From Phoenix dactylifera (taxonomy: Eukaryota; Streptophyta; Magnoliopsida; Arecales; Arecaceae): a DNA stretch of 64,000 nucleotides. Location: NCBI RefSeq assembly GCF_009389715.1, contig NC_052399.1, forward strand, positions 20,326,545 to 20,390,544. Reading direction: 5' to 3'. Numbering within the stretch: position 1 is the first letter of the stretch; every line of letters begins with the position of its first letter. A program made the position numbers and the translations under genes. Under the pieces are notes generated by a model. It was given only the letters and a program-made list of their open reading frames with translations. It was not told the DNA's origin and searched no databases. Below are positions 16,049 to 61,560 of this stretch, piece by piece.

Positions 16049-16057
16049 CAAACTTTC
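16049..16057. repeat. 9-bp target-site duplication of the MULE, left copy
   Basis: CAAACTTTC directly precedes the left tip, and an identical copy at 23006-23014 directly follows the right tip. The exact match fixes both element boundaries. Confidence 0.95.
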
Positions 16058-16200
16058 GGGTAGTTCTAAATACACCCCCCCCCGATTGCTCAGGACACCC
16101 CCCCCAAAAATTAAAAAAAAATTAAATACTCTCTACACCCCCCCCATTTGCTAAGGACACCCCTAAAAAATTAAAAAATCCTAAATTACCCTTCACCCTC
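16058..16200 (+). repeat. MULE left terminal inverted repeat and C-run region
   Basis: The first 20 bases match the reverse complement of the right end perfectly. A C-run, GATTGCTCAGGACACC and an A-rich stretch follow and also mirror the right end. A second, diverged copy of the block (CTACACCCCCC, then TTTGCTAAGGACACCCC) lies at about 16132-16165, so the terminal motif is internally duplicated on this side. Confidence 0.88.
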
Positions 16201-16556
16201 CCCACCCCCTCACCTAAATTGCTCTCTACACCCCCCAAACCCCCCCCCCAACCCCGCTCTTCCCCTCCAAAACTCCACTCCAGCCGGCTTCTCCCTTCCG
16301 CCCAAAAAACTTCGCCTCAAGAACCTCAAGCACCTCGCCGGCGGCCAAACCCCCTCCGTCTCCCCCTTCTCCCTCGCCCAAAACCCCCCCGTTCCCCCTT
16401 CTCCCTCTCGTCGCCGGCATTCTCCCCTTCTCCCTCTCGTCGCCGGCATTCTCCCGGAACCACCTCCCCGGCCATCTCCCGAGCAACGAGCACCTCGCCG
16501 GCGCCTCCACGACCACGTCGAGGTAGCTCCCCGCCCCCCCGCCCCCCCGCCTCCAG

Positions 16557-16860
16557 TGCTCTGTTCGGCACTGGATCGCCGAACAGAAGGGTTCTGTTCG
16601 GCTGAACAGTGCCGAACAGAAGCCCTCTGTTCGGCAACACTCAACCGAACAGAAGCCTTCTATTCGGCTGCACGGTGCCGAACAGAAGCCTTCTGTTCGG
16701 CTGCACAATGCCGAACAGAATGGTTCTGTCCGGCTCTGAGCAGCCGAACAGAAGCCTTCTGTTCGGCTCTGTGCAGCCGAACAGAAGCCTTCTGTTCGGC
16801 ACTGTGCAGCCGAACAGAAGGCTTCTGGTGCGTGCCGTGCTGAATTTTGTGCCGAACATT
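16557..16860. repeat. Left subterminal array of GCCGAACAGAAG palindromes
   Basis: About eight units built on a near-perfect palindrome (GCCGAACAGAAG paired with CTTCTGTTCGGC) alternate with short spacers such as TGCACAGTG, at roughly 33-36 bp spacing. Both edges match the right array as an inverted repeat: the outer edge has GGCACTGGATCGCCGAA and the inner edge has GTGCCGTGCTGAATTTTGTG. Open frames across it on both strands (runs of SAEQKASVRL-like residues) are a product of the repeat. It lies just upstream of the PMD start codon, probably in its 5' leader or first intron. Confidence 0.9.
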
Positions 16861-16923
16861 TATGTATGCAATTGAATTATTTTCTTTGATATAGCCTAAC
16901 ATTGAATTTCTATATTTTCAGAC

Positions 16924-18838
16924 ATGGATCCCCGTCCCGCCAGAGTTAGACCTACGGCGTCAGCTAGGAGACGTCGTGCTAGGATTGCTTCTCCCGAGCC
17001 TGCTCATATGCCATCGGACTCTCCTGAGTCAGAGCATGATGATATGCCCGCTAGGGGCGAAGACGATGAGTCCGTTGGACCATGTCCAGGAGGTCCAGAG
17101 GATGAGTCCGTCCTGATCAGTTTCAGGACGCATATAGCAGCTTCCATCTGGAGGCAACAGGTATTGTTTATTTGTTATAGCATTATATTTTGTTTATTGA
17201 TGTTTTATAAAGTAGTAGTAATTATATATTTATATTACAGGAACGAGCTCCACTAAAGTGCATGAACCATACTGCCAAGGTTGGTGAATGGAAGTGGTGG
17301 TCTTCAAACCAACCAAATACCAGGTTCAGAGCACTATTGAGGCAGTCGGGCCTCGTAGAGTTAGTACAGTGCTCTTATCGATTCATCGATAAGATTCTGA
17401 TTTCGGGCTTCGTAGAGAGATGGCAGCCCGAGACGAACACCTTCCATATACCATTTGGCGAGATCACTATCACGTTGGATGATGTATCCGCCATTTTAGG
17501 GATTCCTGTCGCAGGTTCCTCAGTATCAGTTTCTCCTGAGAGGATGAGTGATCGGGATGCTGAGGAGCTACTTGTGGAGTTGTTGGGGGTGTCAGCTGGA
17601 GACGCGCGTCAGGAGGTACTGTCATCGCGCGGTCAGTCTGTGAGGATGGAGTGGCTGAGGACTCAGTTTCACTCTGTATCTGATAGAGACAGGCAGCAGA
17701 GGATAGAGTGTGCAGCACGAGCCTATTTGTTATTTTTGTTAGGCTGCACACTCTTTGCTGATAAGAGTGGGACCAGGGTGCCTATAGCGTATCTGTGTTT
17801 ACTGCGGGATCTGGATAGGGTGAGCACATATGCCTGGGGTACAGCTGCCTTAGCATATTTGTATCGGCAGTTGGGGATTGCGTCGAGGTCATCAGTGAGA
17901 CAGATCAGTGGTTATATGACGCTTCTGCAGGCATGGATTTATGAGCATTTTCCAGCACTCAGTCCTCACCCGTCGCTCGAGTATACTGATGCCAGTCCCC
18001 GCGTGCACCGCTGGATGCCCGGTACTCCATCCCGTACCACGATGGACCATTTAGTGGTTCTACGTGAGTCATTGGACCTTTTGAGCATCGATGAGGTACG
18101 TATCATATTACCATTTGCTTGTGTTTGTCAGTACATTTAATATGCGATATAGTATAAAACTGAAATGGACCTTTTGTTTTACAGGTTATTTGGGATCCCC
18201 ATCATCGGCTTCGAGGAGATCGCCCATATATACCCGTCGCATTTTTTAGTGGCTCCATCAAGTGCCTTGATATCGTAGAACCCTATCATCCAGAAAGGGT
18301 TCTTAGACAGTTTGGTCGTATTCAGACCATCCCTCGAGCGCCACTAGCCCCTACGCGAGCCAACAGAGGTTCCACAGCAGGCTCGTACCGGATACATTAC
18401 TCCTATATGGATCAGCTTTGGGAGCGGTGGGAGGACCACGTGCTGAGCCAGGCGAGCAGGAGCCACCCAGTTACCCGGCCATCAGACAGCGTACCGGGAT
18501 ACATGGAGTGGTATCTCCGTATCACGCACGTTGCAGTTCAGCCTCCTCATCTGCGCTCGAGTACTCATTCTGGAGCTAGGGGAGGTCATGATGATGCTGA
18601 CATGCACCGGCGGCGTAATGCAGCTGCACTCGGTATCAGTACCGACATTGTACGGATGGGTCCCTCAGAGGCTACGTCACTAGGTGCCGGGCACCTATAT
18701 GATACTATTTCTCAGATGCATCAGGTACTTCTGGGTGATGAGCCTGGCCCGAGTACAGCACCCTCTCATTTGGATCCAGGACCCTCTCATTCGGACGTAC
18801 AGCAGTACACGCGTCGACGATGGCGTCATAGGGATTGA
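16924..18838 (+). CDS. Plant mobile domain (PMD) protein, MAIN/MAIL1-like, MULE-borne
   Basis: Three exons (16924-17160, 17241-18095, 18185-18838) with GT-AG borders join in phase to 581 codons. A TTTTCAG acceptor two bases before the ATG implies an upstream leader intron. Residues 1-79 are basic and acidic low-complexity sequence. The PMD follows, with family words such as FVERWQPETNTFHIPFGE, ITLDDVSAILGIPV, YLLFLLGCTLFADKS and YAWGTAALAYLYRQLG, then WIYEHFP. The C-terminal 200 residues include a basic end (RRRWRHRD). PMD proteins occur as host genes (MAIN, MAIL1, needed in Arabidopsis for transposon silencing and genome stability) and as transposon genes. Frames are intact over all exons, so the gene could still be expressed. 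It diverges from the kinase gene and converges with the transposase gene. Its function in the element is unknown. Confidence 0.88.
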
Positions 18839-19068
18839 TGATGGAGCCTTTGTAATCTTTGTAAAGCCTTTGATATTAATGAAAAATATATATTTTTGGT
18901 ACATTTACGTGTAATCTTTGTAAATCCTGGCCCGTTCTATTTTACATAAATATAACAGTGCACATAACAATCAATCTAACAATGCGAAGACAGATATTTT
19001 TTGATTTATATTGATGATGGAGTTTCAAAAATTGTACATATATAAACAATCAACTTAACTCTACTGTC
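18839..19068. other. PMD gene 3' flank
   Basis: AT-rich sequence after the PMD stop codon contains AATGAAAAATATATA-type polyadenylation-like signals near 18870-18900. It ends in a 55-bp stretch (about 19013-19067) that is repeated at 19493-19597, on the other side of the captured fragments. Confidence 0.5.
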
Positions 19069-19092
19069 TTGCCTCCACCTCCCCCTGAGGAG

Positions 19093-19296
19093 ATGGAGTC
19101 CCGTGGGGGGTTTGACCCTGAATCTGATACGACTGATGTTCTGCCTCCACCTCCCCCTGAGGTACCTCCAAATGTTGTTCCAATCAAAGCTGACCCTGGA
19201 CAAAGTTCCCCTCCAAAAAAGGCAGCAAAGCCTAAGAGGGTGCCAATGGCAAGACCTGGCCTTGCAAGGAGAGGCCAGCCGATTAACCTCTTAACC
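19093..19296 (+). pseudogene. Captured fragment of an AGO4-clade ARGONAUTE 5' coding region
   Basis: From ATG 19093 the + strand reads MESRGGFDPESDTTDVLPPP, then PPEVPPNVVPIKAD, KKAAKPKRVPMARPG, LARRGQPINLLT. This is the layout of the N-terminus of plant AGO4-clade proteins (AGO4/6/16 type): an acidic start, a proline run followed by PPNVVPIK, a lysine stretch, then the PMARPG and RRGQPI words that precede the ARGONAUTE N domain. The frame is open throughout, but homology stops at LLT; the expected NHFKV continuation is absent. Host AGO4 binds 24-nt siRNAs and guides DNA methylation. The proline-coding word CCTCCACCTCCCCCTGAGG occurs twice, at about 19072-19090 and 19141-19160, the first copy lying before the ATG. 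Only about 68 codons were taken, so no functional domain is encoded. Assignment is from remembered family sequence. Confidence 0.72.
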
Positions 19297-19325
19297 AAGA
19301 ACATCACAGAGCCCTCTTTTCCAAC

Positions 19326-19550
19326 AAATGTGTTAATCATCTGCTCAAGCTTGTCACCGTTAAGTTCTTGTACATCAGAAAGGTCTATTAGTTCCCCTGT
19401 TTGATTTGTTTGCTCCCACCAGCTCTTAAGTATGTTTCTGTTTACATCTGAAATCTCAACGGAAACAACAGTCGTCATATGTATTCCCAGCTGATGATGG
19501 AGTTTCACAGTACATGACTCTAAGAGCCCCAAAAAATTTACAACTTTCAA
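19326..19550 (-). pseudogene. Captured fragment of a DRM-type DNA methyltransferase
   Basis: The - strand reads KVVNFLGLLE, then LHHQLGIHMTTVVSVEISDV, NRNILKSWWEQTNQTGELID, LSDVQELNGDKLEQMINTF. It follows the methyltransferase domain of plant DRM proteins closely, between the AdoMet-binding FSGIGG motif and the FDLVIGGSPCNN motif. The segment that should hold FSGIGG is degraded and shortened, and homology stops before GGSPCNN, so neither catalytic motif is present. Host DRM2 is the de novo cytosine methyltransferase of RNA-directed DNA methylation. The fragment is tail-to-tail with the AGO4-like piece, separated by about 29 bp. It lies sense to the transposase transcript, just past its stop codon, so read-through would make sense-DRM and antisense-AGO RNA. 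Confidence 0.82.
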
Positions 19551-19571
19551 AAATTGTACATATATAAATAA

Positions 19572-22214
19572 TCAATCTAACTCTACTGTCTCGCTAATTA
19601 TAACATTAGGTGAGATGCTCTCTTTGAACTGTTGAATCCGTGCTTCATATGAATTTTCCCATCCGGTAGCACAAGGAAGATGATATTTTCGCCAGTTGGT
19701 CGCTACTGGCGGAACGGGATGTCCCGGCAACAAGAACACCTTCAAAATTAGAAATAAGAAAATATTAATAGCTACAAAATTATAAATAAGCAAGATTAAA
19801 TAAGCAAAATTAAATATTCGCAAGTGTTGTGAACGTAGTACCTCAACAAAATGATTTCCATTTACGAATCCGATAGCGATATCTTTGCGGGATAGAAGAG
19901 GTACTGGCACAGAACGGAGAGGTAGGAAGGTCAGACATTGTTGCAACGAGAGGTATCGGCACATCTCGGCACGGCACGTCCCGACATGTCCCGTATCGGC
20001 ACATGACATACCGGCACGGCACGGACCGTCCCGTAGACGTTGTGATACCTATTGTAAGGAAATAAATATTTGGTACTTACCTTTTGCTTGGGCCGTCTCT
20101 TTTGAATCTGAGTAGATGGATTGCGGATGGTAACTTTCTCAACACCAGGTGAATAACTATCCTGTCCAGATAGAACCAACTCAAACGCAGACGGGTCACG
20201 TCGAGTAGACGTATCAACCTTCAGTGAAGCGCGCCCACGTGAACCGGTCTTCCGTTTTGCAGGCTCTAAAAGAGGTGTACTATCTGGACTTGCAATCTCT
20301 CGTAACTTCTTGATCATCTGCAATTGAGAAGCCCCATCTAACTTCTTGAATCGTAGCGCAATCAAATCTAACTCTGCATCACAACTCAACTGAATTGGCT
20401 GCACGGGGGGGGTAGGCAGAATATCAAGTTTCCTCCAATGAGGATCTATGCAGTCGAGAGGAATGGGCCGACCTTCCACCCTGTACCGCGCAATCTGGTG
20501 AGCACATGGTATACCATGTGTGCGTCGAATAGCGCACCCACAATTTGAATCATCAAACCCAACTGAATTGGCTCGTATCGATTGGGCGAGGACATGATTT
20601 AACGCACTTATAGATATGAAACCTCGCAACTCTTTGAATTCAGCTGGCTTGAAGTTGTGCTGCACTACCAATAAACTCTTCTCCAATGAGGCTTTAACGG
20701 AGCTGTGCTGCAACTCAATCAATCCATGTATTCTAGTCCAAGATGACTCGAAACTTCCTTGGCTTGATCCAAGCTGCTTTTTGAGCTTTGCATGTGCACT
20801 CTCGACCCTAGTAAACAAATGAAAGTTAGATATAAGAATTGAGGCAAATTAAATTTAAATGAGTCTTTATTTGTGATACCTATTTGTCGTCACATTTCCG
20901 TAGTGCCTGCATGTATCAGTCCACGCCGCAACAAATCTTTCCTTGTATTTGCTCAGCCAAGTATCTGACACATACTGTAGTGCATCTGGATAGGTACCGA
21001 ACTCTCTCTGCAGTGCACTCCAGCGATCATTATACTCGTCTTCCGTGGAGGACAGCACTAGTACATTCCAACTCATAATAAATTTATCCCATTTCTCCTT
21101 CAATTCGAAAAATTTTTTGCACTTGGCCAAAACATTCCTACTAATATGCCATCTACATAATAAATGTCTAGCAGTAGGAAATACTCTATGAATTGCATTC
21201 ATCAAAGCCAAGTCTCTATCTGTAACAATCAACTCAGGCAAAACATCATCAGCTATGACACTGCGCAATCTCTCTAATGCCCAAGTATAGCTTTCTTCCC
21301 CCTCAGAATTTAAGTATACAAAAGCAACTGAAAATGTCATGTCAGTAGATGTCACCCCCACAATCTCTAAGAGCGGAAGACGATACCTATTCGTCTTGTA
21401 CGTGCAATCCATTATCAACACACGGAGAAATGCACGGAACAAATCAATGCTGCCAGGGTGTGCCCAAAATAAGTCATGCACAACATCCGTATTAGTACAA
21501 TTCCTATGCCACTCAATATATTTAGCCTCTGATAATTTACCTAATAGATGTTGCATTTCAGACCTCCCGGCTTTCTCTGCAACCTTAAACCGTTGACGTA
21601 CATTGTAGATAGTCTTGATAGTCGTAACATTAAGGGCATCTCTTTCCTTCAATGTGGATAATATGTCCTTTGGACGAACCAAACTCTTCGACATATCCAC
21701 TAACAATTCCGTCTCCTGCTCAGATAATCTCCCTGCATATGAGTGCCCCTCCAGATTCTCTGCAGCGGGATGATTGTGCACTCCACATACGACCAGTAAT
21801 ATCCAATCATCCGCAGTATCCAATTTCTTTCCTCTTAATGCAAAAGGGCATCCACACTTCTTTGTCCCACAGGCAGTCTTTATTCGCTTTTCTTTTTTGG
21901 TTCGGTACGTCCCACCCCTCTCACAACCTAACGTAATTCTGGGTTTCTTAGAAATGGTACCTGCATCGGATGATTTGATTACAACAACAAAACCATTTCG
22001 CCTCCCAGCTTCACGACACCAATTACACAAGTCCTCTCTACTCTTGAAGATCTATACATTAAACAATTTATGTAAGTACACAGTTGTAAAAATAGCTCGC
22101 TAAACTAATACAAAATTGCACAATATATTATAATACCTCGTAAGTTGTAAATTCGCTTGTGTAATCCAGTACAAATTCTGATCCAATTATACTCGATTCG
22201 GTTGTAGCATAGCC
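19572..22214 (-). CDS. MULE transposase (FAR1-like N-term, MULE domain, SWIM finger, partial OTU)
   Basis: Exons recognised 5' to 3' are 22214-22137, 22051-20880, 20807-20081, about 19952-19842 and 19739-19572; the 5' end beyond 22214 is not resolved. The N-terminal part has a FAR1/WRKY-GCM1-type zinc region (CNWCREAGRRNGF, KKCGCPF, CGVHNHP). The DDE transposase core shows IMDCTYKTNRY and VTDRDLALM, followed by RHLLCRWHI. A SWIM zinc finger follows (CGCAIRRTHGIPCAHQIARY). The last two exons encode the C-terminal half of an OTU-like cysteine peptidase domain found on many plant MULE transposases (QQCLTFLPLRSVP, then NGNHFVEVFLLPGHPVPP, with the probable catalytic His). The OTU half that should carry the catalytic Cys is missing; a 98-bp palindromic insert sits exactly there. 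The core frame is uninterrupted, so the DNA-cutting domain could still be made. Confidence 0.85.
19952..20049. mobile_element. 98-bp palindromic MITE-like insert in the transposase gene
   Basis: The block begins GGTATCGGCAC and ends GTGATACC, and is full of CGGCACGGCACG and CGTCCCG words that pair with one another. It lies immediately before the first recognisable OTU codons (LSLQQC) and 32 bp after the previous exon's donor site, where the first half of the OTU domain should be encoded. The word style matches the GTAC-rich repeat in the kinase intron at 13295-13625. Confidence 0.6.
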
Positions 22215-22258
22215 CTACATATAAAATAATTTATCACCAAGAATTAATGAATCAGAGG

Positions 22259-22605
22259 ATCTGTTCGGCACAAAATTCAGCACGGCACGCGATTTGGCAC
22301 GAGAAGGCTTCTGTTCGGCTGCAGAGTGCCGAACAGAAGGCTTCTGTTCGGCTGCAGTGTGCCGGACAGAAGGCTTCTGTTCGGCTGCAGTGTGCCGGAC
22401 AGAAGCCTTATGTTCGGCACTGTGCCGGACAGAAGCCTTATGTTCGGCACTGTGCAGCAGAGCCGGACAGAAGCCTTATGTTCGGCACTGTGCAGCCGAA
22501 CAGAAGCCTTCTGTTCGGTAGAGCGTTGCCGAACAGAAGGCTTCTGTTCGGCACTATGCAGCCGAACAGAAGCCTTTTGTTCGGCGATCCAGTGCCGAAC
22601 GGAGC
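22259..22605. repeat. Right subterminal array of GCCGAACAGAAG palindromes
   Basis: About nine palindromic units like those on the left, with variants CCGGACAG and CTTATGTTCGG. Its edges are the reverse complement of the left array's edges (GCACAAAATTCAGCACGGCAC inside, TTCGGCGATCCAGTGCCGAAC outside). The two arrays therefore form one long imperfect subterminal inverted repeat. It lies upstream of the first recognised transposase exon. Confidence 0.9.
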
Positions 22606-22933
22606 ACGAACCGTGAAAAAAAAAAACTTTCGAAACAAGGTGGAACACGTACCTTTGCGGCCGATTCTTCGTCCTAAATCACTAGTTGCTTGTCCATGCT
22701 TCGAATGGGGCTTAAATCTCCTTCAAAGATCGCCTAAACGATGTAAATGGATCGAGGGGTTTAAGGGGGGTTTGAGGGGTGGTTTTTTTTTTCCTTTTCA
22801 AAACGAAACGGAGGAGGAGATGGAGGAGGAGGAAGGGGGGTGTACTGAGAAAATTTCAAGGGCAATATGGTAATTACACTAAAGGTTAGTTTGGGTTTTT
22901 TTTTTTTGGTTTTTGGGGGGTGTCCTGAGCAAT

Positions 22934-22982
<49 letters not shown>

Positions 22983-23005
22983 GGGGGGTGTATTTAGAAC
23001 TACCC
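22606..23005 (-). repeat. MULE right end: putative transposase leader, G48 run, terminal repeat
   Basis: A possible leader exon ends at a donor near 22652 (CGGCCGCAAAG followed by GTACGT on the - strand). An A/G-rich stretch, a run of 48 G (22934-22981) and the terminal repeat ending at 23005 follow. The matching run on the left is only about 10 C, so the tract length is either unstable or an assembly artefact. Confidence 0.65.
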
Positions 23006-23014
23006 CAAACTTTC
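23006..23014. repeat. 9-bp target-site duplication of the MULE, right copy
   Basis: CAAACTTTC, identical to the left copy at 16049-16057. Confidence 0.95.
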
Positions 23015-31681: not shown

Positions 31682-33886
31682 CTATATCGCGTGTACCGAA
31701 ATGGGCACTGGCACTGAGACTGAAACCTCTCCACTACCAAAACTCGAACTCCGCCTCAATGAGTCGTTGGTCATCGCAGATGTGCGATCGATAGCCCATC
31801 CACTTCCCAGGGCCATCGCTGCTGGTGACGCGCACCTTTGGCAAATCTTTGCGAGCAGGGCCGCTTTTCTTCTCGCCCTCTTCGTCCCCGTGAACAAGAT
31901 GGTGTGAAGCAACGCACCCAACGATGGCATCCTCGCCACCCTCTGAGTCAAGACGAAGCCACCGCGCTGGCACAGCTCCTGCAGTGCCGCAACCGCATTC
32001 TCCTTCCCCTTTGCAGTTCCCATCCTCATCAGCCCCAGTAGGCTATTGATCGCAGCCTCTTCGCTCCCGACCACCTCTGCTACAATTGGCTGCTTCAGGA
32101 GCAAGGCCAGTGCACCTGCTGCCTCCTCAGCCACCCCTTCATCTTCCACTGCTCCCACCAATGCTGAGACTGCCCCCATATCCATCATCCGGACCCAGCT
32201 TTCCGGGTGAGTCGAGAGATTGAACAGCGCCATCACAGCATCCTTCCTCCCTCTCGGTCTCCCATCGGTCAGCATGCGCGCCAATGCCTCCACTGCACCT
32301 GGCTCGTCCAGGATTGTTTTCTTGTGTTCGTGCACCGCGGACAGGCTGAACAACGTGGCTGCTGCATTCTCCCTCGCCTCCGTAGTCCACCCTTGTCTCA
32401 AGACGCTAACAATCAACCTCAAACACCCTTCTTCGTCCATAATTCGGCTCTTGTTAACGTCATGAATCGATAAGTTCAATATGGCAGTCACTGCATTCTC
32501 CTGAGCAACTGGATTCCACGTACAGAGAAGCTTGGAGAGGAGCGGGATCGCCCCTGTCTCCGCGATGAAAGCCCGGTTCTCCCTCCCAGTCTTCGCCAGC
32601 AACCGAAGCTCGCGGACGGAGACGGTCCTCTCATCCTCCGACCCAGTCGACAGCTGCCGAACCAAAATTGTAGCCGTCGCCCGGTTGGCTTCCACCGCGG
32701 CCTTGCTGGAACACGCGGTGGCGATGCTCTCGGCGGAAGCTTCGGCGCTCTCCGGAGTGTCATAAGGTATTCCATGAGCACTACACCACTGAGAAATTAG
32801 GGTTCGAAGGGCGCGATTGGGCACGAGAAGGTTGTGGGCGAGCATCAGGCCAGAATTAGGGCAGGTGTAGTGGCCTTCATCGATCCATTGCGTGATCGAG
32901 GCACGGTCATATGTCTGACCGGTGGAGGTGATCACCGGGTCCCTCATCAAATCAAGTGAAATCGGGCAGCAGAAGTCCTTGGGAATGGTGAAAGAGGAAT
33001 CCAAACTCCCCTGGCTGGGCAATCCCTTGCTCAATTTCCTTGCTTGATTGCTGCATCTCTCGACGTCAATCTCTTGAAATCCAAAGAGCAAGAACCTACA
33101 ATACCTAGTGAGGGCCACGACCCCGCCGAGAATGGCGAAATCGGCATCTTCCTCCTGGTTATAAATCTGTTCTTCCAAGAATTCAATCTCGGTCCGGCAA
33201 TCCGTGGCATCTCGAATTCCCAACTGATCGACAAAAGCCGCCCGCAGCTCCTCCGCGTCCGGAGCCTCGCCCTGCTCGAATTCATTGAGGAAAGAGAAGA
33301 GCTTGCGGCGGAGATCCTCGTCCTGCGGATGGACATAGAGCTTGGACCTCCTGGTCTGCCTCTGGAGCAGCTCGATCTGCTCCCGGACGTCGGCGGAGAG
33401 ATGGAGAGCATCGAGGGGGAGGACGTCGAGGAGCGTGGCCATTTCTTGGTTGAGGTCATGAAAATTGCCGGAGATCTGGGGGTTTCTGAGAAGGAGCCAG
33501 AGCCGGCTGGACTGCGAGCAATACTCGAGGAGGAGCTTGGCCCGAAAGACCAGGATGTAGAGCTCTCTAAAGCAAAGGATAGCGGAGCGAGGGAAAGGAG
33601 GAGGACGACGAGGAGGGGAGGAAGAAGAGGATAGCGAATCTTTCAGGAATTCGAAGAGGCAAAGGAGGATCTTGACCTTCCGGACGAGGGATCTGGAGTT
33701 CCGTCGCTGGAATTGGGCATGGGGGCTGTAATGGGAGGTGACAAGTTCGCGGGCGAGGCTGGCGAGGATGTGGATGAGAGCGAGGTCGGAGAAGTCCGCC
33801 GGCGCGAAGAACGCCCCTGCGACCGGCAATCTCCTCCGCCGGATGGAGAGGAAGGCGAGCGCGGAGGACATCTCGTCGACCGCCAT
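31682..33886 (-). CDS. U-box/ARM E3 ubiquitin ligase, PUB17/ACRE276-like
   Basis: Intronless gene of 734 codons, close to the length of Arabidopsis PUB17. The start at 33886 is chosen because MAVDEMSSALAFLSIRRRRL, then FFAPADFSDLAL, matches the PUB17-type N-terminus; the frame stays open a further 210 codons upstream but that part lacks family sequence. Residues 1-280 form the UND region. The U-box is at about 301-374 (IPKDFCCPISLDLMRDPVIT, then TYDRASITQWI and CPNSG). Armadillo repeats fill about 400-690 (LLAKTGRENRAFIAETGAIP, AVTAILNLSIHD, ENAAATLFSLS). The U-box recruits E2 enzymes and the ARM repeats bind targets. PUB17 and tobacco ACRE276 promote hypersensitive cell death in immunity. 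A clade-level call is firm; the exact orthologue is inferred. No lesion is seen. Confidence 0.93.
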   Translation of the reverse strand: MAVDEMSSALAFLSIRRRRLPVAGAFFAPADFSDLALIHILASLARELVTSHYSPHAQFQRRNSRSLVRKVKILLCLFEFLKDSLSSSSSPPRRPPPFPRSAILCFRELYILVFRAKLLLEYCSQSSRLWLLLRNPQISGNFHDLNQEMATLLDVLPLDALHLSADVREQIELLQRQTRRSKLYVHPQDEDLRRKLFSFLNEFEQGEAPDAEELRAAFVDQLGIRDATDCRTEIEFLEEQIYNQEEDADFAILGGVVALTRYCRFLLFGFQEIDVERCSNQARKLSKGLPSQGSLDSSFTIPKDFCCPISLDLMRDPVITSTGQTYDRASITQWIDEGHYTCPNSGLMLAHNLLVPNRALRTLISQWCSAHGIPYDTPESAEASAESIATACSSKAAVEANRATATILVRQLSTGSEDERTVSVRELRLLAKTGRENRAFIAETGAIPLLSKLLCTWNPVAQENAVTAILNLSIHDVNKSRIMDEEGCLRLIVSVLRQGWTTEARENAAATLFSLSAVHEHKKTILDEPGAVEALARMLTDGRPRGRKDAVMALFNLSTHPESWVRMMDMGAVSALVGAVEDEGVAEEAAGALALLLKQPIVAEVVGSEEAAINSLLGLMRMGTAKGKENAVAALQELCQRGGFVLTQRVARMPSLGALLHTILFTGTKRARRKAALLAKICQRCASPAAMALGSGWAIDRTSAMTNDSLRRSSSFGSGEVSVSVPVPISVHAI

Positions 33887-34986
33887 AGGGTTTCGCCTTT
33901 GCTCCAAAATCGAAACCCCAGAATCAAAATCAAAATATCCCCCTCTTCCTATTCTTCTTGATTTAAGGGAATGGAATGGGATTGCAGTGCGGGGATTGAC
34001 TTGGTTCTTCACAAAACGTGACGGGGGACAGGGAGGATGCCGGCAAGGAGATTCTAAATCGAGGAAGGTGATCCTCTGGACTGCGGGATTATTAGATTCG
34101 GCAGATGGAGACGAGGATTGATTTGAGAAGTTACAGGGACGTAGTTGGATGGCTCTTAAAATCGCGGAAGGGGGGGGGTTTCCGCGTTCGTTGAGTGGAA
34201 ATTTCGGACGCCTGCCTGCCTTTAGAAGCAAAAGCCGACACCGGTTTTGACGCCCACAACCAGGCGGCCACGGGCCCCACCACCACGGAAAGGGTAGAGT
34301 GGGAAACAAGCGTGTTCTTTTCCCGGAATGACTCAGCGTACTGCAGTGCCAGCTGGCATTAGCTGGGGGTATTCTGCTCATTTCATCTCCATTGGTCGGC
34401 GTACAGCGAGAGGTGGGGAGAGGCGTGGGAACGGGCAATTGGGCCAAAGTCAACGTTGGCGTTTCAGACACGACAGGAGAAAAAAAAAAAAGGAACTCTC
34501 TGGCGTGCCGTTCCAAATAAAAATTTACTCCTATTTATTAGTGGCCTAATGGATTCGGTGAACGTACCATCCCACGGCGGTGAAAGAGGACGGAAAGGTG
34601 AGCGATTACTTACCGCAGTCAAAAGTGAAAACAAAAAAAAAAGAAGAAAAAAATGAAATGGTTTTTGTTTTATTTTTTTCGTAAAAATAACACGCATGGC
34701 AATGCTCGCGACAGCGACCTTACTTGTTTGACGGAAGAACGAAACACTGGATGGAATGATCACGGTCAGAGAAGAAAAGGCGCCAAGATTGGAAAAACCA
34801 AGCATGGGTTCAAGAAAGAGGCAAGAAGCCTCCCTGGCTCCCTCACTGCCACGGAACCGCCAAAGAAATTTACCGGACTACAACTCTTTTTTTTATTTTT
34901 TTTTCTCCGCGCATGTAGGCTACAGTAAAAATGAAAAATAATAATAATAATAAAAAAGCTGTTGAAGGGCATCATTTTATTTCCCA
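33887..34986 (-). promoter_or_regulatory. Upstream region of the PUB17-like gene
   Basis: About 1.1 kb between the start codon and the hAT-type element at 34995. It is GC-rich close to the gene and A/T-tract-rich beyond 34460. No TATA box was fixed with confidence. The proximal 630 bp lack in-frame stops on the - strand, which lengthens the apparent reading frame. Confidence 0.45.
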
Positions 34987-60114: not shown

Positions 60115-61560
60115 ATGGAGACCGCCAGGCCGGCGCCATCTAACTTTGGGTCACTGGCCAAGACCGTTACAAAGATCCTCCGCCTCCGGCGGGCCGCCAC
60201 CGGCTCCGGCGGAGGCGGCGGCGTTGGTGTCGCCTCTGACAAATATAAGCCAATCATGGAGAAGCTCAAGCTCTCAGGAAACCTCACAGAGTACTCCACC
60301 ATGCTCTCCGAGCCTCACAAAGACGAGGATGGGAAGCAGCAGCAGGAGCACTCGCAGAAGCTCTCCTCCAAGGATAAAGAGGCCATGGAGTCCCTTCTTG
60401 CGAACCTCTTCGCCAGCATCTCCGCCATCAAGGCGGCCTACGCTCAGCTCCAGGTGGCCCAGTCACCCTACGACCCCGACTCCATCCAGTCCGCCGACAA
60501 GTCCGTGGTCTCCGAGCTCAAGCACCTCTCCGTCCTCAAGCAGTGCTACCTCAAGAACCAGCTCCAATCCCACGCTCCCCCGGCCTCCCAGTCGGCCCTG
60601 GAGGCCCAAATCCAGGAGCATCGTAGCCTCCTCAGGACATACCAGATCACCACCAAGAAGCTCGAAGCCGAGATTCAGCTCAAGGACTCCGAGATTCTCT
60701 CCCTCCAAGCCGAGCTCCTGTCCTCCGAGAAGCAGAACCGAGCCCTCGACGCGAGGCTCCACCCGGGCCGCTCCCTCGCCGCCCTTGATGATCTCCACCT
60801 CTCCGGCTTGAACCCCACCCATTTCCTCACCGCGCTGCGGTACGCCGTGAAATCGATCCGGTCCTTTGTCCAGCTGATGGTCAGGGAGATGGAATCGGCC
60901 GGGTGGGACCTCGACGCCGCGGCCGGGTCCATCCAGCCTGACGTGCTCCGCCGGAAGCCTCGCCACCGGATCTTCGCCTTCGAATCCTTCGTCTGCCAGA
61001 AGATGTTCTCCGACTTCCACCGCCGTGACTTCAATCTTAGCTCCTCGGCAGACCGGTCCGCCTGGGACCAGCGCCGGTTCTTTAAAGAGTTCACCGACCT
61101 CCAATTTGTGAGTTTAAAACAGGCTTTCGATGGGAAAGGCCAGAAGTCGGCGTTGGGAAAGTTCTTGAGGGCCAAGTATTTGGCCCTGGTCCACCCGAAG
61201 ATGGAGGCGTCCTTCTTTGGTGATCTAGATCAGAGGGCGCTGGTGAGCTCGGGGCGGGGGTTCCCGGAGTCGGCTTTCTTTGCCGGCTTCGCGGAGATGG
61301 CGAGGCGCGTGTGGCTCCTACACTGCCTCTTCTTCTCGTTCGGGCCGGAGGAGGAGGGGTCCATCTTCCAGGCCCGCCGTGGTACCCGGTTTTCGGAGGT
61401 GTACATGGAGAGCATCGCGGAGGACGACGACGACGACGACGACACGGCCGGTGTGAGGCCCCCCGCCGTGGGGTTCACGGTGGTCCCCGGGTTCCGGGTG
61501 GGGAAGACGCTGATACAGTGCAAGGTCTATCTCTCGTCTAGGGTGGGCGGGCGGTCATGA
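60115..61560 (+). CDS. DUF641 protein, GIL1/IRKI family
   Basis: Intronless gene of 481 codons. The start at 60115 gives METARPAPSNFGSLAKTVTK, the usual family N-terminus. DUF641 follows at about residues 45-160 (KYKPIMEKLKLSGNL, LSSKDKEAMESLLANLFASI, SAIKAAYAQLQVAQSPYD). A predicted coiled coil runs at about 160-220 (EAQIQEHRSLLRTYQITTKK, then LEAEIQLKDSEIL). The C-terminal conserved half includes FVQLMVREMESAGWDLDAAA, HRIFAFESFVCQKMF and VGFTVVPGFRVGKTLIQCKV. A run of seven Asp lies at about 437-443. GIL1 is needed for light-induced loss of gravitropic growth in Arabidopsis, and related proteins have been linked to receptor kinases; the role of this member is unknown. Strong GC3 bias fits monocot intronless genes. 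No lesion is seen. Confidence 0.92.
   Translation: METARPAPSNFGSLAKTVTKILRLRRAATGSGGGGGVGVASDKYKPIMEKLKLSGNLTEYSTMLSEPHKDEDGKQQQEHSQKLSSKDKEAMESLLANLFASISAIKAAYAQLQVAQSPYDPDSIQSADKSVVSELKHLSVLKQCYLKNQLQSHAPPASQSALEAQIQEHRSLLRTYQITTKKLEAEIQLKDSEILSLQAELLSSEKQNRALDARLHPGRSLAALDDLHLSGLNPTHFLTALRYAVKSIRSFVQLMVREMESAGWDLDAAAGSIQPDVLRRKPRHRIFAFESFVCQKMFSDFHRRDFNLSSSADRSAWDQRRFFKEFTDLQFVSLKQAFDGKGQKSALGKFLRAKYLALVHPKMEASFFGDLDQRALVSSGRGFPESAFFAGFAEMARRVWLLHCLFFSFGPEEEGSIFQARRGTRFSEVYMESIAEDDDDDDDTAGVRPPAVGFTVVPGFRVGKTLIQCKVYLSSRVGGRS

Follow-up and report, generated by a model that had tools for sequence, protein, structure and literature searches.

Does a transposon that carries pieces of the host silencing machinery interfere with silencing, or are these pieces passengers? 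This question is raised by positions 16058-23005 of a 64,000-nucleotide stretch of date palm DNA (Phoenix dactylifera, NC_052399.1; hereafter the window), which hold a Mutator-like element (MULE) with both ends located. The original prediction, made from the sequence, recognised in it a PMD gene together with fragments of an AGO4-clade argonaute gene and of a DRM methyltransferase gene, the latter two being core factors of RNA-directed DNA methylation (RdDM), and named selection for interference with silencing and chance capture as possible explanations. Our analysis indicates, with a probability of roughly 0.7, that the insert containing the two fragments would be a product of template-switching repair, later carried along as a passenger by a young, high-copy family of PMD-bearing MULEs to which the present element belongs.

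Both fragments could be assigned to donor genes, as predicted. The AGO4B fragment (19088-19298, plus strand) begins 5 nt ahead of the start codon and ends within the first coding exon, of which it takes in 68 codons; it agrees with its donor at 208 of 211 positions. It is preceded by a short extra copy of AGO4B sequence (19070-19090, plus strand, 20/21), after which, at a 3-nt overlap (AGG), the sequence returns to a point about 70 bp further upstream in AGO4B. The DRM2 fragment (19321-19496, minus strand) is 176 bp of a methyltransferase exon (LGIHM..EQMINTF) and matches its donor at 173/176 positions. The two are joined by a 35-nt piece of a sequence here called stretch X (19294-19328), which overlaps each of them by a few letters and is common to copies of the element that carry DRM2 only. 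The donors were found in the date palm's own genome (G000, a 773 Mb assembly with the window at C8:20326545; DNA similarity searches scored the best 40 candidates), AGO4B at 27.57 Mb and DRM2 at 6.49 Mb of C1. Joint capture of the two as neighbours was considered and rejected, because they lie on the same chromosome but 21 Mb apart.

Protein comparisons gave the same assignment. Among 113 proteins matched by the AGO4 peptide, the best was an argonaute 4B-like protein of Phoenix dactylifera (97% identity over 90% of 81 residues, E=9.3e-37), followed at ranks 2-4 by argonaute 4B of Cocos, one further record and a second argonaute 4B-like protein of Phoenix; the Pfam accessions listed for the 113 matches are presumably argonaute domains. 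The DRM peptide (62 residues) agreed with the DRM2-like protein of Phoenix dactylifera at 57/59 residues and matched PDB entries 4onq/4onj (E=1.3e-19), which we take to be tobacco DRM. A PDB search with the AGO4 piece returned nothing significant, and a Pfam scan found no domain in either piece. The fragments are short (68 codons of the AGO4 N-terminus and about 58 of the DRM methyltransferase domain) and are not domains with an activity of their own. The genome contains other AGO4-like genes, one on C83 with about 80% protein identity measured over the exons that follow the captured stretch and another, less closely related, at C1:23.24 Mb, as well as a second DRM gene on C3 with 46% identity in a comparison that lies outside the captured stretch itself. 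AGO4B-like and DRM2-like proteins of Phoenix dactylifera are both present in the protein collection.

The insert is widespread in the genome. A 34-mer across the junction of AGO4 and DRM2 occurred at 53 places, and its reversed control at 0 (up to 2 mismatches, whole count). Of these places 27 were read, comprising 21 full copies (the window and L009-L028) and six short ones (L039-L041, L045, L046 and L049). The whole insert (428 columns) is kept in 20/20 further copies fetched in full, so that neither missing donor similarity nor restriction to one copy speaks against the predicted pair of fragments. We also rejected a single-copy oddity or an assembly artefact, in view of the 53 places and of a separate 5,217-base record whose protein is exactly encoded by 15/21 copies. 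Searches of other genome and viral contig collections for the chimera or the transposase gave no confirmed match. Two changes in the AGO4B piece are private to the window and absent from all 20 other copies, hence the common state is probably 210/211 to the donor; in a few of those copies this piece carries one additional private change.

The copies are young and were inserted independently of each other. Target-site duplications are perfect (9/9) and mutually different in 15/20 further copies; at the ends as placed they are imperfect in L011 (8/9), L010 (7/9) and L020 (3/9), and in L009 and L023 the left end is not recognisable. The median pairwise core identity among full copies is 99.64%, and the minimum of 83.9% is attributed to L009 (G000:C1770:1500-9500). 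The left part of this copy, over the PMD region, aligns to the family at only 65%, although the insert and transposase are 99.5% alike; it is possibly a rearranged or recombinant copy. Singletons dominate the polymorphisms (45/47 in PMD exons, 46/55 in transposase exons), which is the pattern of a burst. Divergence within the insert copies is 0.35%, which at substitution rates of 1.3e-8 to 2.6e-9 means 0.1-0.7 million years.

Siblings without the insert are at least as numerous as those that carry it. An uninterrupted 120-mer across the insertion site was found at 95 places, with 0 for the control (up to 3 mismatches, whole count); subtracting 13 that adjoin a DRM2 place, as compared by eye, leaves about 82 empty siblings. 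A query of the joined flanks gave 40 insert-free places at 97-99% identity (the best 40 of 231 candidates), and a pattern search with the left flank by itself counted 170 places in all. Ends were compared for three empty copies, and in all three the tips match and the target-site duplication is perfect. Between empty (6) and insert (16) copies the divergence is 0.49%. For this figure and the 0.35% within insert copies, 16 of the 21 insert copies were used (L009, L012, L023 and L028 were left out and L021 failed to match); the six empty copies are the best matches to a family query, and their diversity of 0.22% is therefore biased low.

A third kind of sibling carries DRM2 without the AGO4 junction. 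About 23 such places were identified with the protein P0135 as query (79 rows), counting by eye those rows that covered at least 74 of 96 residues and subtracting the donor and two rows at junction places. The five of these 23 that were read (L042-L044, L047 and L048) contain a longer DRM2 piece at the same site of the same element, interrupted in all five by X, whole or in part. Two type-A copies were read, and each retains an intact duplicate of the site on one side. An intermediate form is seen in L045, which combines the AGO4B piece and the long DRM2 piece with part of X; L046 and L049 are shortened relatives. P0135 itself (NCBI, Phoenix dactylifera, DRM1A-like, 96 aa) fits a DRM2-only copy: its DRM2 part ends with GLEG, and the tail IIISFVGKEGSVMFLVR and the following stop are X read in frame. 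This annotated protein is likely a misannotated MULE-borne fragment, or else it may represent a predicted fusion transcript.

Some members of the family lie close together. At G000:C5:8719918-8731670 empty, DRM2-bearing and AGO4B+DRM2-bearing members occur within about 12 kb, a cluster that would favour exchange between the types. At L053 (G000:C14:22990600-22991700, with empty sites at C14:22987299 and C14:22994177) the right tip of one copy and the left tip of the next are separated by just one 9-bp target-site sequence, CAAGCTGAG, so that the two are arranged head to tail.

The sequence of the insert gives indications of how it might have been assembled. At the junction of AGO4B (TTAACCAA) and X (CTGACCAAGAACATC) the letters ACCAA are common to both, and at the junction of X (TTCCAACAAAAG) and DRM2 (CACCAAATGTG) CAAA is common, where the window type lacks 281 bp present in L045. 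Likewise AGG joins the short first copy of AGO4B to the main copy, and TGATG is shared on the right, where DRM2 meets the element. These overlaps of 3-5 nt are short, and may point to a stepwise capture by template-switching repair, first of DRM2 and then of AGO4B. Furthermore, the insert is flanked on both sides by duplicated element sequence, the left copy (19012-19069) carrying a 42-bp internal deletion and the right copy (19492-19598) containing the transposase stop codon and its 3' flank. The full left duplicate is kept in three copies (L039-L041), in which the left one is a GAGGCC variant and the right one GAGCCC. Both variants are present among the 95 uninterrupted sites (32 and 63, respectively) and separate two groups, and the simplest reading would be a mosaic, in which repair synthesis began in one sibling, continued into AGO4B and passed on to a DRM2-bearing sibling. 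Relative to the whole element, the insert site falls at 0.40-0.45 in the window and in 17/18 other copies with both ends located (0.36 in L028, which has a large deletion), the zone in which repair proceeding from both ends would come together.

A single capture of DRM2 is probable, since the change 19422 A>G relative to the donor is common to all DRM2 types that cover the site (L046 and L049 cover 48 of the 146 core DRM2 sites). To conclude from the 94-96% identity of type-A DRM2 alone that it was captured earlier was rejected, because five of the 6-7 differences in the shared 146-base core form one patch (19401-19409) and because of the common 19422 change. Stretch X (about 163 nt) is present inside the DRM2 capture in L042-L045 and L048. 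It gave no match to the retrieved AGO4B and DRM2 donor loci and could be a third captured sequence.

The following course of events would account for these structures. In a first step, gap repair in an element may have strayed into DRM2 and copied the exon with its 3' flank, X lying within. Later, repair from the left part of one sibling would have jumped into the first coding exon of AGO4B, slipped back, jumped again into a DRM2-carrying sibling and been completed on the right side of the latter. A deletion of about 280 bp between the 4-nt CAAA repeats would then have shortened the DRM2 part, and in most copies the 42-bp deletion would have trimmed the left duplicate. Finally, the chimera was mobilised many times.

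The element around the insert shows the features of a MULE, with a transposase domain, terminal inverted repeats and a 9-bp target-site duplication. The duplication CAAACTTTC is found at 16049-16057 and 23006-23014 (identical at 9/9 positions), and the tips of the terminal inverted repeats (16058-16080, plus strand, and 22983-23005, minus strand) are 23 bp each and identical when one is inverted. The ends had been described as perfect, which holds for the duplication and these tips but not beyond 23 bp, where they diverge. Inside them lie subterminal arrays of 33-bp units, the left one (16560-16827) with about 8 copies and the right one at 22302-22585; over 147 nt the two match in inverted orientation at 90%. 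The units of both arrays share the self-complementary core CCGAACAGAAGCCTTCTGTTCGG or close variants of it. Each array might thus form hairpins, possibly serving as transposase binding sites or as a silencing trigger. The terminal regions contain three further open reading frames of at least 150 aa, and an Rfam scan of the window gave no match.

The PMD gene on the plus strand and the transposase gene on the minus strand converge, and both fragments lie between their 3' ends (19070-19496). For PMD, a three-exon splice model (16924-17160, 17241-18095 and 18185-18838) gives 581 codons without a stop, and a Pfam scan found PF10536 in the open reading frame 17262-18140 (E=6.7e-58), which bears out the predicted gene; the 581-codon frame is open in 13/20 other copies. 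On the minus strand, the transposase region (19572-22030) matches both the MULE domain PF10551 (E=5.8e-27) and, less strongly, FAR1 (E=1.3e-6). Its further parts, SWIM-like and OTU-like, were named from motifs, and neither gave a Pfam match above threshold. The window copy is atypical here: its OTU-like part is missing after about 19952, and compared with the 20 other copies it lacks a block spanning 547 alignment columns (at most 546 letters in any one copy) in this part. The FAR1/MULE stretch is open in the window and in 19/20 other copies (shortened in one of the 19), and each of these 19 also has an open SWIM-like and/or OTU-like stretch. All three are open at full length together in 7/20 other copies; these stretches were counted from stop to stop with introns included, and thus do not represent the spliced gene. 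Behind the transposase stop codon an open frame runs on the minus strand through 19050-19550, with DRM2 in sense and AGO4B in antisense, and ends in a second copy of the TVEL codons, the last ones of the transposase. Since the duplication has a spacing of 480 bp (3 x 160), this frame stays open through both fragments.

The original prediction had counted PMD among three kinds of silencing-related sequence carried by the element. We rejected it as a third captured silencing gene of note, because PMD is ordinary in monocot MULEs: according to a published table it occurs, often antisense to the transposase as it also does here, in most members of several plant MULE groups including a monocot one (PMC6446971). 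Outside the element, the window contains a probable host U-box/ARM protein gene (31682-34516, minus strand; PF04564, PF25368) and a host gene of the GIL1/IRKI type (60115-61560, plus strand; PF04859, PF24994).

Of the two explanations originally offered, chance capture with subsequent hitch-hiking is favoured by the junctions, by the roughly 82 empty siblings and by the lack of visible constraint, and selection for interference is possible but unsupported. The insert sits in a gap between convergent genes, neither of which is broken, and would therefore be tolerated, with AGO4B or DRM2 affected, if at all, as a by-product. Diversity in the insert is 0.0016-0.0026 compared with 0.0031 in the PMD exons (L009 was left out of this and the following count, as it was of the singleton counts above), and in this comparison no constraint on the insert is visible. 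In PMD itself, 43 changes among the copies alter an amino acid or a stop and 12 are silent, for 1325:418 sites, an absence of bias towards silent changes that is to be expected given the youth of the copies.

Several considerations weigh against a passenger history. Among copies so young, the diversity of the insert cannot show selection. It is also improbable a priori that two core RdDM genes should meet at one site, although this is a weak argument made post hoc. Assuming 30 pathway genes among 27,000, a second capture would fall within the RdDM set with p ~0.001, and for 264 two-parent genes, the number of MULE-derived genes with two or more parents given for japonica rice (PMC4858842), the expectation is about 3e-4 such pairs. 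With 30-60 pathway genes, 3e-4 to 1.3e-3 pairs are expected per genome, and no more than 0.03 if 20 pathways would have appeared equally striking; many genomes and many possible coincidences may temper this improbability. Finally, a benefit acting in trans would help empty siblings too, so that their amplification is compatible with a function.

Apart from passenger spread, an effect on the donor genes that brings no advantage to the element is conceivable, though unlikely: silencing of the approximately 53 copies may yield 24-nt siRNAs that methylate exons of AGO4B and DRM2. The near-identity to the donors (208/211 and 173/176, with identical 21-mers) would allow this, the AGO4B piece spans the start-codon region, and an epigenetic conflict following capture has been proposed for other captures (PMC11986588, in part); yet AGO4B-like and DRM2-like genes of Phoenix dactylifera are at least annotated.

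Quite unlikely in our view is that the insert acts as an anti-silencing RNA. The genes on either side converge and the two pieces are oriented oppositely, so a transcript running into the insert from left or right would be sense for one donor and antisense for the other; the resulting double-stranded RNA might give rise to small RNAs that lower AGO4B and DRM2, weaken RdDM and thereby favour the whole family in trans. The sequence itself would permit RNA effects: 21-mers identical to the donor loci number 170 for AGO4B and 110 for DRM2 in the commonest state, shown for each gene by 17/20 other copies (128 and 110 in the window), compared with 0 from one shuffled insert. The family was highly active at or after the capture, and small RNAs common to a captured fragment and its donor have been proposed elsewhere (in the available part of PMC11986588). 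However, empty copies are at least as numerous, the other AGO4-like (C83, C1:23.24 Mb) and DRM (C3) genes may be spared, and no constraint is visible on the insert. Just as doubtful in our view is a self-limiting loop, in which host silencing of dozens of copies would produce insert siRNAs against AGO4B and DRM2, such that stronger RdDM would lower its own machinery. The loop would have been acquired in two steps, with the capture of two core genes of the pathway.

A protein decoy, be it the product of the minus frame or the 68-residue AGO4 N-terminus as a dominant-negative peptide, is highly improbable: the minus frame stays open for 173 residues or more in 19/20 other copies, as it does in the window, the 142-aa protein P0134 from the separate record mentioned above is near-identical to it and P0135 fits a DRM2-only sibling, but about half of the frame is antisense AGO4B, its DRM2 part of the window type has about 58 residues without the FSGIGG motif, it comes after a stop codon with no ATG near its start, and the AGO4 part is without PAZ, MID and PIWI.

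Among the systems described so far, the date palm family resembles Pack-MULEs and the chimeric genes derived from MULEs in rice in its MULE ends and in holding captured pieces of host genes that are partly exonic and may come from more than one parent (PMC4858842). Pack-MULEs are described there as non-autonomous, whereas the present family carries a PMD gene and its own predicted transposase, so that it has the host-gene fragments of a Pack-MULE but not the lack of a transposase. In rice, where such chimeras are common, the parents are preferentially located in hypomethylated, recombining regions (PMC4858842). The captured pieces in date palm differ from those of Pack-MULEs in that they lie in a gene-free gap and in that both parents come from one silencing pathway. 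With the PMD-bearing MULE groups the family has in common a transposase with antisense PMD, a 9-bp target-site duplication and terminal repeats (PMC6446971, PMC5418596). In the parts of these two papers available we met no AGO or DRM fragment in PMD-bearing MULEs, and the text of PMC6446971 nowhere mentions "argonaute"; an anti-silencing role of MULE-borne PMD has already been speculated on (PMC5418596).

VANDAL elements with VANC, an element-encoded DNA-binding anti-silencing protein that acts with tandem motifs, are also MULEs with arrays of tandem repeats in non-coding DNA and a possible anti-silencing strategy; there the agent is a protein, whereas the candidate agent here would be an RNA homologous to host genes (PMC5735166, in part). 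Brassica Helitrons are similar in that captured fragments were proposed to share small RNAs with donor genes, and differ in that the donors in date palm are RdDM machinery, so that such crosstalk would close a feedback loop (PMC11986588, in part). Our searches of open-licence PMC papers showed no transposon carrying both AGO4 and DRM2 pieces, nor such a chimera in dozens of copies. The family offers a natural experiment of very recent date on whether a transposon can direct small-RNA silencing at the silencing machinery itself. Because the donors coexist in one genome with empty, DRM2-only and AGO4B+DRM2 copies that are closely related, the hypotheses could be told apart directly by data on small RNAs, methylation and expression. 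It also suggests that host sequence can be captured by mosaic template switching inside transposase-bearing elements that went on amplifying, in contrast to the rice study, which in the text available describes capture in non-autonomous MULEs (PMC4858842).

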